From Planctomycetota bacterium (lineage in GTDB: Bacteria > Planctomycetota > Planctomycetia > Pirellulales > Pirellulaceae): a DNA stretch of 64,000 bases. Positions within the stretch are counted from its first letter, which is position 1. Each line of letters opens with the position of its first letter. Positions 40,998 to 44,261 of this stretch are shown here, piece by piece. A program made the translations under genes and the position numbers. The stretch covers positions 1 to 64,000 of the forward strand of contig VGZA01000010.1 in assembly GCA_016872775.1 (NCBI GenBank). The letters run 5' to 3'. The notes beneath the pieces are model-generated. The model worked only from the letters and a program-made list of their open reading frames with translations. It ran no database searches and was not told the DNA's origin.

Positions 40998-42395
40998 TCA
41001 GCTCAGTTCGACTTCTTCCTGGTACGCCGGCACGGAGACATCGAGTTTCCAGCGGTCGCGGATTTCGGCCGCCAGATGCTGTGCGACGGACTCCTCGCCA
41101 TGGGTCAGGAAGAGTCTCTTCAGTCCGGAGATGTTTCCGAGCCATTCCAGCAGTCCCGATCGGTCGGCGTGGCCGGAGAAGCCGAAGATCTGTTGAATCT
41201 GGGCGCGGACTTTGAATTCTTGTCCGTGGATGCGCACGATCGGATTACCTTCCAGGATCGTTCGGCCGAGCGTACCTTGACCCTGGTAGCCGACGAACAG
41301 GATCGTCGATTCCGATCGGCCCAGATTCTGCCGCAGGTGGTGTTTGATGCGACCGGCGGTGCACATCCCGGAGCTGGCCATGATGATACATGGTTTTCTG
41401 TAGTTGTTGATGGCGCGCGATTCATTGACCGAGCGGCAGAAGGTGAGTCCGGGGAATCGCAGCGGGGGCCGGTTATCGGCCATCATGGCGAGTGTCTCCT
41501 CATCAAAGAAATCGCCCAATCCGCGATAGATTTCGGTAACGTCGACGGCCATGGGGCTATCGACGAATACTTTCAGTCGGGGGATCCGCGCGCGGTTCAC
41601 GAGTCGGCTGATGTAGAACATCAGTTCCTGGGCACGTTCGACCGCGAAGGTCGGGATCACGACGTTGCCGCCGCGACGAGCGGTTTCGCAGATGATCTTC
41701 TCGAGTTGCGTTTCGACGTCTTCTTTTTTGCGATGTTCGCGATCGCCGTAGGTCGATTCCATCACGGCGTAGTCGGCGGACGTCAGAAAGGTCGGATCGC
41801 GGATCAGGGGTTTGTCGTGTTGTCCGATGTCGCCCGAAAAAACGATGCGTCGGGTCCGACCTTGTTCGGTGACATCGAGTTGGATCATTGCTGAACCGAG
41901 GATATGTCCGGCGTCGAAGAAGCAGGCTTGGAGATGGTCGAAGACTTTGAATGGCTGACCGTAGCTGATGGGTTGGAAGAGTTTCAGCGATTCGGTCACG
42001 TCCAGGTCGGTAAAGAGAACCCGTTCGGGGTATGCCGATTTACGACCTTCGCGGGCATGTCGGCGCGCTTTGTAATTGGCGTCTTCGTTTTGGATTTTGG
42101 CCGCGTCGCGAAGCACTACCTCCGCCAGTTCCACCGATGCGCGGGTAGTGTAGATCGGACCGCGAAATCCCTCGCGCACCAGGCGGGGGATCAATCCGCT
42201 ATGGTCGATATGGACGTGGGTGAGCAGCAGCGCGTCGACCTGGTTCTGGGGGATCGGGCAGGCATGCCAGTTACGATCCTCGAAGGGCCGTTCCTGAAAC
42301 ATTCCGCAGTCAATCATGACCTGCTGGCCCATCGAATCGATGCAATATTTTGATCCGGTCACCTGACGATTCGCACCAAGAAAGTGCAATTTCAT
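40998..42395 (-). CDS. MBL-fold/beta-CASP RNA nuclease (CPSF-73-like)
   Basis: A 465-residue metallo-beta-lactamase with beta-CASP and RMMBL domains. MKLHFLGANRQVTGSKYCI opens the fold. Motifs follow: THVHIDHSG (HxHxDH), DAGHILGSAMI, VFSGDIGQHD, MESTYGDR, beta-CASP VVIPTFAVERAQELMFYI and IIMASSGMCTAGRI, then FGFSGHADRSGLLEW and LTHGEES. The family cleaves or trims RNA in the cytoplasm; bacterial members of this length are ribonucleases of uncertain target. No partner gene is obvious. It is upstream of the three-unit repeat and reads away from the PNP genes. Confidence 0.93.
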   Translation of the reverse strand: MKLHFLGANRQVTGSKYCIDSMGQQVMIDCGMFQERPFEDRNWHACPIPQNQVDALLLTHVHIDHSGLIPRLVREGFRGPIYTTRASVELAEVVLRDAAKIQNEDANYKARRHAREGRKSAYPERVLFTDLDVTESLKLFQPISYGQPFKVFDHLQACFFDAGHILGSAMIQLDVTEQGRTRRIVFSGDIGQHDKPLIRDPTFLTSADYAVMESTYGDREHRKKEDVETQLEKIICETARRGGNVVIPTFAVERAQELMFYISRLVNRARIPRLKVFVDSPMAVDVTEIYRGLGDFFDEETLAMMADNRPPLRFPGLTFCRSVNESRAINNYRKPCIIMASSGMCTAGRIKHHLRQNLGRSESTILFVGYQGQGTLGRTILEGNPIVRIHGQEFKVRAQIQQIFGFSGHADRSGLLEWLGNISGLKRLFLTHGEESVAQHLAAEIRDRWKLDVSVPAYQEEVELS

Positions 42396-42494: not shown

Positions 42495-43397
42495 TTACTG
42501 CGGGGCCCCTGTCCCGGCATTGGTGAGGAACGCCGCGATCGTGCGTCCAAGGTCGGCCGCGGCATCGGCCGCGGCTTGGGCGACTTCAGCGCCGCTCGTC
42601 TTATCCAGGCGGTCGGGGTGAGCCACATTCGTTACGGTGGAAAGGCCAGCCACGCGCAGTCCCAGCCGGTTGGCTTCGAGCACTTCCGGGATGGTCGACA
42701 TACCAACGACGTCGCCGCCGAGACGTCGGGCCATGCGGTATTCGGCGCGCGTTTCGTAGTTTGGACCAAGCATGCCGACGTAGACTCCTGGCACGATGGG
42801 AGCTCGCGCCGCGCGGCCGGCTTGGAGTATTGCGCGCAGCAGTCGCGGGCAGTAGCCCAACGAACGGCGGCCGCCGAACGACGGTTCGGCGGGCGATTCG
42901 CAGAGCGGCTCAAAGGGCGGTTGGTCGGGTTTCTCGATTGCAGTTGAGCCGGGCGCGACGGCGCGTCCCATCAGGTTGATATGATCGCTGATCGCCACGA
43001 TGTCGCCGACGCTCAACAGGGGATTAACGCCTCCGCTCGCGTTCGTCACCAGCAGCATTTCAGCGCCCAGTTCCCAGGCGATCCGAACGGGCAGCGTCAC
43101 CTCCGCAAACCGATAACCTTCGTAGAGATGCACGCGCCCCTGGAAAGCGACAATCGGCGTATCGGCAAGTCGGCCACACGCCAATTGTCCTCGATGTCCG
43201 ATCGACGTCGCCTGGGGAAAACCGGGCAGGGAACGGTAGTCGATGCAGGTTTGCAGCTGCATCGAATCGACGAAACCACCGAGCCCGGTTCCCAGAATAA
43301 TGGCGGCGCGGGGCTGGCAATTCCAGGCGTTGCAAATCGACTCGACGGCGGAGCGGAGTGTCCGCGGCGTTTCTGGCGGGCGATCATGAAGCGACAT
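42495..43397 (-). CDS. Purine nucleoside phosphorylase, first of two tandem copies
   Basis: A 300-residue trimeric-type PNP (class II, MTAP/PNP family) that splits purine nucleosides with phosphate. Phosphate site ILGTGLGGFVDSM, GHRGQLACGR, GRVHLYEGY and TNASGGVNPLLSVGDIV. Base site GPNYETRAEYRMARRLG (Glu of the base pocket) and VGMSTIPEVLEANRLGLRVA. The position matching human Asn243 is Asn (STVTNVAHPD), so 6-oxopurine nucleosides (inosine, guanosine) are expected substrates. An insert of about 30 residues (PPFEPLCESPAEPSFGGRRS) is unusual. It follows PNP2 on the minus strand after 33 bases. Confidence 0.93.
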   Translation of the reverse strand: MSLHDRPPETPRTLRSAVESICNAWNCQPRAAIILGTGLGGFVDSMQLQTCIDYRSLPGFPQATSIGHRGQLACGRLADTPIVAFQGRVHLYEGYRFAEVTLPVRIAWELGAEMLLVTNASGGVNPLLSVGDIVAISDHINLMGRAVAPGSTAIEKPDQPPFEPLCESPAEPSFGGRRSLGYCPRLLRAILQAGRAARAPIVPGVYVGMLGPNYETRAEYRMARRLGGDVVGMSTIPEVLEANRLGLRVAGLSTVTNVAHPDRLDKTSGAEVAQAAADAAADLGRTIAAFLTNAGTGAPQ

Positions 43398-43430: not shown

Positions 43431-44261
43431 TCAATGCGGCCATTCGGCCGCGAGTACTCCCGTAACGATTTTTCTCAGATGGGGTTCCGCCCCATTCGCG
43501 GTCGCGATGATCCTGGCGATGTTGGCTGGTTCGAGGCAATCAGGAAGGCACATGTCGGTGACAATCGACAGTCCTAAAACTCGCAGGCCGCAGTGGGCGG
43601 CGACGATGACTTCGGGAACGGTCGACATTCCAACGATATCCGCGCCGATCAGCCGCAGGAATCGGTATTCGGCGCGCGTTTCCAGATTTGGACCCAGCAC
43701 CGCCACAAACACTCCGCGATGGGCGACGATGTCGCCGCGCCGCGCGATTTCGAGTGCCCGTTCGGTCAGCCGACGATCGTACGGTTGGCTCATGTCGGGG
43801 AAGCGGGGCCCCAGGCGATCGTCATTAATTCCAACCAGCGGGTTGTCGCCCATCAGGTTGATATGGTCGTCGATCACGACGATATCGCCGGCCGAATAGT
43901 ACGGGTTCATCCCGCCGCTGGCATTGGAGACAACCAGCAGTTCGGCGCCGAGCGCTTTCATCACCCTTACCGGCAGAGTGATCGCCTGCAGGGGATAACC
44001 TTCGTAGGCATGAAAGCGCCCTTCCATGGCGGCGACAGGCACGCCGGCCAGGGCACCCAGGACGAGTCGTCCGCGGTGCGAAACGGCGGTCGATCGCGGG
44101 AAGTGCGGGATCTCCTCGTATTCGATTGCCGCTTCGACCGTCATCTGATCGACGAGTCCGCCGAGTCCCGTGCCCAGAATGATCCCGGCTTTCACGTTGC
44201 CGTTCCAGACTTGCCGGATGCGTGCCACGGCATCGGCGATCTGGCCCCAAAGTTCTTGCAT
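43431..44261 (-). CDS. Purine nucleoside phosphorylase, second copy, with Asp at the base-specificity position
   Basis: A 276-residue PNP/MTAP family protein, upstream in the operon of the first copy. Phosphate site ILGTGLGGLVDQM, SHRGRLVLG, GRFHAYEGYPLQ and SNASGGMNPYYSAGDIV. Base site GPNLETRAEYRFLRLIG, then VGMSTVPEVIVAAHCGLRVL. The residue aligned with human Asn243 is Asp (LSIVTDMCLPDCL). An Asp here is seen in MTAP, and in human PNP it shifts preference toward 6-aminopurines, so adenosine or methylthioadenosine may be the substrate (inference). Confidence 0.92.
   Translation of the reverse strand: MQELWGQIADAVARIRQVWNGNVKAGIILGTGLGGLVDQMTVEAAIEYEEIPHFPRSTAVSHRGRLVLGALAGVPVAAMEGRFHAYEGYPLQAITLPVRVMKALGAELLVVSNASGGMNPYYSAGDIVVIDDHINLMGDNPLVGINDDRLGPRFPDMSQPYDRRLTERALEIARRGDIVAHRGVFVAVLGPNLETRAEYRFLRLIGADIVGMSTVPEVIVAAHCGLRVLGLSIVTDMCLPDCLEPANIARIIATANGAEPHLRKIVTGVLAAEWPH

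Follow-up and report, generated by a model that had tools for sequence, protein, structure and literature searches.

A tandem pair of PNP genes in a planctomycete and a candidate replacement for MTAP

The window, a 64,000-nucleotide stretch of a Pirellulaceae genome (phylum Planctomycetota), carries two tandem genes of the purine nucleoside phosphorylase (PNP) family. We consider it fairly probable that the upstream gene, PNP2, encodes a 6-aminopurine phosphorylase of the trimeric PNP family, acting on 5'-methylthioadenosine (MTA), 5'-deoxyadenosine and perhaps adenosine, which replaces MTAP, and that its partner, PNP1, handles 6-oxopurine nucleosides. The substrates, the replacement and the division of labour are all proposed from active-site residues and pathway gene content. 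Asp236 of PNP2 would favour 6-aminopurines, and Ile248, in place of the histidine that binds the 5'-hydroxyl, would favour nucleosides carrying something other than a hydroxyl at the 5' position. The enzyme would convert MTA and phosphate into adenine and MTR-1-P (or an analogue), doing upstream of MtnA what the missing MTAP would do, and the released adenine would be recycled by APRT.

The tandem gene pair

PNP2 (positions 43431..44261, minus strand) and PNP1 (42495..43397, minus strand) are intact open reading frames of 276 and 300 amino acids, with PNP1 lying 33 bases downstream of PNP2. Both match Pfam PNP_UDP_1 (PF01048) over the cut-off, and both exceed the cut-off of 197.1 bits for TIGR01697 (PNPH-PUNA-XAPA, the trimeric PNP subfamily), PNP2 with 296.6 and PNP1 with 233.6 bits. 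TIGR01700, the "inosine and guanosine-specific" equivalog (cut-off 293.35), accepts PNP2 (309.4 bits), a point against the replacement of MTAP, and leaves PNP1 under the cut-off (228.0 bits). The MTAP equivalog TIGR01694 gives PNP2 76.7 bits, well under its cut-off of 274.85. The predicted PNP2 monomer (pLDDT 91.3, pTM 0.91) has 4M1E, from Planctomyces limnophilus, as its nearest solved structure (Z 40.9, 1.3 Å over 271 residues), and its match to human PNP 1RR6 (Z 38.0, 1.7 Å) indicates that it has the fold of the solved trimeric PNPs. The PNP1 monomer model reaches a pLDDT of 84.2, with the loop 146-177 below 50.

The genome itself (99.9% complete) has one further PF01048 gene. It encodes a 440-amino-acid PNP_UDP_1 protein with a long N-terminal extension (L083:1072-2394, minus strand, contig C1) that resembles HpnG, MTAN and futalosine hydrolase, falls under every NCBIfam cut-off listed (best HpnG, 90 of 187 bits) and could hydrolyse MTA, a point against the replacement of MTAP by PNP2. 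Just downstream of PNP1, positions 40998..42395 (minus strand) encode a beta-CASP nuclease of the metallo-beta-lactamase fold; its best NCBIfam model is type VII Cas14, and with 412 of 800 bits it is not a member by that test. Clustering of the flanking ORFs of the window and of 80 related loci found no conserved neighbour common enough to suggest a pathway: once the PNPs themselves and an ORF shadowing them on the other strand were set aside, no cluster was present at more than 11 of 81 loci.

Active-site residues and precedents

Pocket columns were numbered by human PNP and placed by sequence alignment combined with published contacts; PNP2 aligns without gaps to 4M1E, with one gap to 4LNA (Spirosoma linguale), and needs a few gaps against human PNP (its H257F mutant, 2A0X). 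According to PMC3214022, human Asn243 and Glu201 bind the base, Asn243 contacting N7 and O6 of bound deazaguanine, and His257 binds the 5'-hydroxyl, a contact also given in PMC12648331. In human numbering PNP2 has Thr33, Arg84, His86, Tyr88, Leu200, Glu201, Met219, Asp243, Cys245 and Ile257, and PNP1 has Tyr200, Glu201, Asn243, Ala245 and Gly257. The aligned codons, all on the minus strand, are for PNP2 Leu193-Glu194 (43680..43685; ribose wall and base-pocket Glu), Asp236 (43554..43556), Cys238 (43548..43550) and Ile248 (43518..43520), and for PNP1 Tyr214-Glu215 (42753..42758), Asn257 (42627..42629) and Gly269 (42591..42593). These positions bear out the preliminary description of the locus, which had reported a base-pocket Glu common to both copies (Glu194 and Glu215) and, at the position of human Asn243, Asp in copy 2 and Asn in copy 1; the published contacts likewise place this residue in the base pocket. 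The coordinates of that description covered PNP2 only, and it was silent on what has changed at column 257 and at column 200.

PNP2 shares with the trimeric PNPs (PNPH/PunA/XapA and human PNP) the fold, Glu201, Met219 and the Arg84/His86/Tyr88 set, but differs from the human enzyme by Asn243 to Asp, His257 to Ile and Phe200 to Leu. Compared with the human contacts, Asp243 and Ile257 mean that it departs from an oxopurine PNP both at the base and at the 5' end. Of the two residues expected in a 6-oxopurine-specific PNP, Asn243 is found in PNP1 (Asn257) and not in PNP2, and His257 is found in neither (Ile248 in PNP2, Gly269 in PNP1). PNP2 has in common with MTAP/MtnP (TIGR01694) Asp243 and, from the alignment, a pocket that is hydrophobic at 257; the shared reaction is our proposal. 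Four planctomycete MTAPs over the cut-off (L137, L291, L292 and L293) have Asp243 and Val or Leu at 257, together with Ser201 and Asp245. The statement that Asp is the MTAP-like state is thus right for this one column, but PNP2 has Glu (Glu194) where these MTAPs have Ser and Cys (Cys238) where they have Asp, and both differences count against the replacement of MTAP.

Asp-type PNPs are already known as PDB structures, since 4M1E and 4LNA belong to the clade of PNP2 and have its pocket (Leu200, Glu201, Asp243 and Cys245, with Leu257); both are titled plain "purine nucleoside phosphorylase I". A search of the open-licence literature found no paper naming 4M1E or 4LNA with PNP and no relevant paper on the B. 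fragilis PNP; among the open-licence papers listed on MTAP, PNP and methionine salvage and on trimeric 6-aminopurine PNPs, planctomycetes figured in no title or opening of an abstract. These searches yielded no activity measurements for PNP1, PNP2, 4M1E or 4LNA. Engineered enzymes provide the functional precedent. In the K. lactis PNP, which a sequence search identifies as a homologue, the mutation N256D introduces Asp for Asn at the position equivalent to human Asn243: in PMC5074518 the wild type has no detected activity on adenosine and a kcat/KM of 2.0e6 on inosine, whereas N256D has 2.2e6 on adenosine and 1.6e5 on inosine. The link between Asp and 6-aminopurine preference in engineered PNP, mentioned in the preliminary description, therefore stands. 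The same paper quotes, for human PNP N243D, a 5000-fold improvement with adenosine, and human PNP E201Q:N243D, with the same exchange, cleaves adenosine prodrugs (PMC2799393). The K. lactis N256D and human E201Q:N243D enzymes are man-made and, unlike PNP2, unaltered at the His257 position, as these two papers describe them. PDB 6TK9 (Thermus thermophilus), a trimeric-type PNP, carries Ala where human PNP has Glu201 and Asp where it has Asn243; it was set aside as a precedent because it may be either TthPNP I or TthPNP II.

Conservation among relatives and in the family

Among the 80 best relatives of PNP2, taken from genome contigs, Leu200, Glu201 and Cys245 are invariant (80/80), column 257 is Val, Ile or Leu in 76, and column 243 is Asp in 79, so Asp243 does not result from chance. 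The single exception (L069:814-1569), with Asn243, is 65% identical to PNP2 and keeps Leu200 and Cys245; its MAG also carries an Asp-type gene (L033). A downstream partner gene is present at 26 of the 80 loci, and all 25 readable partners have Asn243, with column 257 being His in 13, Gly in eight, Ala in three and Lys in one. Since 73 of the 80 loci have at least 1100 bases downstream, the partner does not adjoin in most loci where none was seen.

Of 60 genomes from the taxonomic family to which the window belongs, 57 have PNPs of this type, and each of the 57 carries an Asp243 copy in which Leu200, Glu201 and Cys245 are also present. Column 257 of these 57 Asp copies is Val in 52, Ile in two and Leu in one (55 in all), with Pro in G040 and Thr in G053, whose copy was read by eye, the automatic row being a 16-residue artefact. 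An Asp copy and an Asn copy occur together in 56 of the 57 genomes; in 44 they lie on the same strand of one fetched stretch with the Asp copy upstream, and in G058 the second gene of the pair is cut by the contig end. Conservation is stronger in the Asp copies, which show 57-76% identity to PNP2 (30 relatives), than in the Asn partners, which show 35-46% to PNP1 (25 partners).

MTA pathway genes in the family

MtnA uses MTR-1-P, which is supplied either by MTAP or by MTAN plus MtnK, and it also takes part in 5'-deoxyadenosine catabolism in M. jannaschii (both from PMC6302742). In the 60 family genomes, counting matches of profile models over their cut-offs, MtnA is present in all 60, MtnB in 33 and APRT in 54. 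MTAP is present in one, MTA nucleosidase (MTAN, TIGR01704) in none and MTR kinase (MtnK) in none. The genome of the window follows this pattern: MtnA and APRT are over their cut-offs, and MTAP, MTAN and MtnK are not over those of the models used. With these three enzymes missing, PNP2 is the best candidate source of MTR-1-P. MtnB in this genome reaches 70.9 bits, under the cut-off of 137.05, so complete methionine salvage is at most a possibility here, a point against the replacement; the lack of a clear MtnB might mean that only the 5'-deoxyadenosine branch is run. The preliminary description had proposed that the pair covers oxopurine and aminopurine nucleosides. The joint presence of both copies in 56 of 57 family genomes is consistent with this, but the proposal missed the 5' end and the pathway: the absence of the 5'-hydroxyl-binding His, the presence of mtnA and the absence of an MTAP over the cut-off make MTA or 5'-deoxyadenosine a likelier main substrate than adenosine alone.

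Several observations in the family count against a replacement of MTAP by PNP2. Weak sub-cut-off matches occur for MTAN in 39 of the 60 genomes and for MtnK in 12, and the one genome with MTAP (G031, 9% contamination) also has an Asp-type PNP. Two genomes of one genus (G010 and G059) and G045 have MtnA, MtnB and APRT over the cut-offs and lack a PNP2-type gene, G010 and G059 having no PF01048 match at all; MtnA thus does not strictly need a PNP2-type enzyme.

Distribution across the phylum and alternative readings

We extended the analysis to 118 genomes of the phylum, defining Asp-type as Glu201 with Asp243 and Asn-type as Glu201 with Asn243, and counting among the matches listed, above about 80 bits. 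We left uncounted those rows that MTAP retrieved best and those lacking Glu201 together with Asp or Asn at 243; PNP-like rows of neither type number nine, with one doubly fetched gene (G017) counted once. Among the matches listed, Asp-type genes occur in 60 genomes (61 copies, all with Leu200; column 257 is Ile in 30, Val in 19, Leu in ten, Ala in one and Met in one, thus Val, Ile or Leu in 59) and Asn-type genes in 53, with His257 in 42 of 53 copies. MTAP is over the cut-off in 39. Asp-type and MTAP never occur together among the matches listed (0/118 genomes; Fisher 3.7e-17), nor do they at the level of the 54 taxonomic families (Asp-type in 30, MTAP in 17, both in none among the matches listed; Fisher 7e-9), although these p-values ignore common ancestry, which weakens the exclusion statistic, and the exclusion may come from few evolutionary events. 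The Asn-type has no such exclusion, being found in 20 of the 39 MTAP genomes (p 0.43) and, among the matches listed, in 27 of the 60 Asp-type genomes. For the Asn-type companion, a tree with 47 labelled rows has at least eight state changes and eight independent pairs over all branches; on supported branches the independent-pairs test has one pair and no power. MtnA is over the cut-off in 95 of the 99 genomes with Asp-type or MTAP. Of the 19 genomes that have neither enzyme, 11 still have MtnA, a further point against the replacement; two of these 11, G141 and G145, have near-cut-off MTAPs.

Several other proteins of the phylum deserve mention. L294, L295, L297 and L298, sub-cut-off MTAP-like proteins in Asp-type genomes, have Glu201, Asn243 and Ala245 and are possibly methylthioinosine-type phosphorylases. 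The Asp-type genomes G068, G082, G132 and G143 also encode an MTAP-like protein that stays under the cut-off and combines Glu201 with Asn243 in its pocket. L249, L250, L286, L288 and L289, in MTAP genomes, are PNP-like with other residues at the Arg84, His86 and Glu201 positions and would be divergent paralogues or misaligned. L253 (G083) has an odd mix of both types: Leu200, Asp201, Asn243, Asn245 and Leu257.

The strongest alternative, which we regard as unlikely, is that PNP2 is chiefly an adenosine phosphorylase, releasing adenine and ribose-1-phosphate, with APRT converting adenine to AMP in place of an adenosine deaminase route. The adenosine deaminase family (PF00962) is indeed found in only four of the 60 family genomes and not in that of the window, the presence of APRT in 54, including this one, would suit such a route, and K. 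lactis N256D prefers adenosine (PMC5074518). However, the His that binds the 5'-hydroxyl is replaced by Val, Ile or Leu in 76/80, 55/57 and 59/61 Asp-type copies. This replacement does not simply accompany the change at the base: two Bacteroidales PNPs, L301 (Prevotella nigrescens) and L302 (Phocaeicola massiliensis), keep His257 and Phe200 beside Asp243, that is, a base change without the 5' change, so that the changes at 243 and 257 are separable. The exclusion with MTAP would also be unexpected for a pure adenosine enzyme.

We give still less weight to the possibility that PNP2 is a broad or 6-oxopurine PNP, in which Asp243 beside an intact Glu201 is not decisive for specificity. The retained Glu and the acceptance by TIGR01700 agree with it, as does the fact that, of the 60 Asp-type genomes in the phylum, 33 have no Asn-type among the matches listed, and K. 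lactis N256D still used inosine; yet in the latter enzyme the preference was reversed (both in PMC5074518), and the family keeps an Asp copy and an Asn copy in 56 of 57 genomes. That MTA is instead deaminated to methylthioinosine and cleaved by PNP1 (Asn, and Gly at the His257 place), as in the route known in P. aeruginosa (PMC6302742), with PNP2 acting elsewhere, seems very improbable, since His257, although also lost in the PNP1 of this genome, is kept in 13 of the 25 readable PNP1-type copies.

Evolution of the pair

The history of the two genes was analysed with a tree of 63 chosen rows, from which columns 192, 200, 243, 244, 245 and 257 had been removed, and which replaces an earlier FastTree of 123 rows. 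All 15 sampled PNP1-type copies of the lineage of the window form one clade (96/90) nested inside the Asp-type clade, where it adjoins the Asp copies from that lineage (99/90, 100/98). The 17 other planctomycete Asn-types group with the PNPs of human, Listeria and E. coli (91/91). The Asp clade includes 4M1E and 4LNA, and L301 and L302 lie just outside it. Given this nesting, PNP1 seems to have arisen by duplication of the Asp gene and to have returned to Asn, and from the tree it is probably the derived copy; L069, with Asn243 beside the retained Leu200 and Cys245, may be an in-between form of this reversal. The bootstrap of the 63-row tree had not settled and the branch of PNP1 itself is long. 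None of the AU tests rejects at 0.05, whether all Asn-types (p 0.051) or the Asp-types (p 0.135) are placed in one clade or all Asn-types except L303 are set apart from the Asp rows (p 0.121), so the reversal rests on the branch supports. The preliminary description had treated the Asp copy as the unusual paralogue, which is probably the wrong way round: the Asp gene is conserved and phylum-wide, and the Asn copy is faster-evolving and probably derived.

A longer history can be offered tentatively, as a scenario that we hold somewhat less probable than its opposite. MTAP would have been replaced by a PNP with Asp243 and a hydrophobic residue at 257 in much of Planctomycetota; then, in the lineage of the window, the original oxopurine PNP would have been lost, and a duplicate of the MTAP-like PNP would have restored it, Asp going back to Asn and Leu200 to Tyr.

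Implications

Because TIGR01700 takes the Asp copy and refuses the Asn copy, the automatic naming of the two genes may be the wrong way round. If the proposed role of PNP2 is true, a large group of genes named ordinary PNPs would be MTA or 5'-deoxyadenosine phosphorylases, which would account for why these bacteria seem to lack MTAP. They would also offer a natural case, ready to assay, of one fold changing from 6-oxo to 6-amino specificity, for which a crystal structure, 4M1E, exists. The replacement of MTAP followed by a re-made oxopurine PNP, if it took place, would mean that a single residue has switched purine specificity in both directions in nature.
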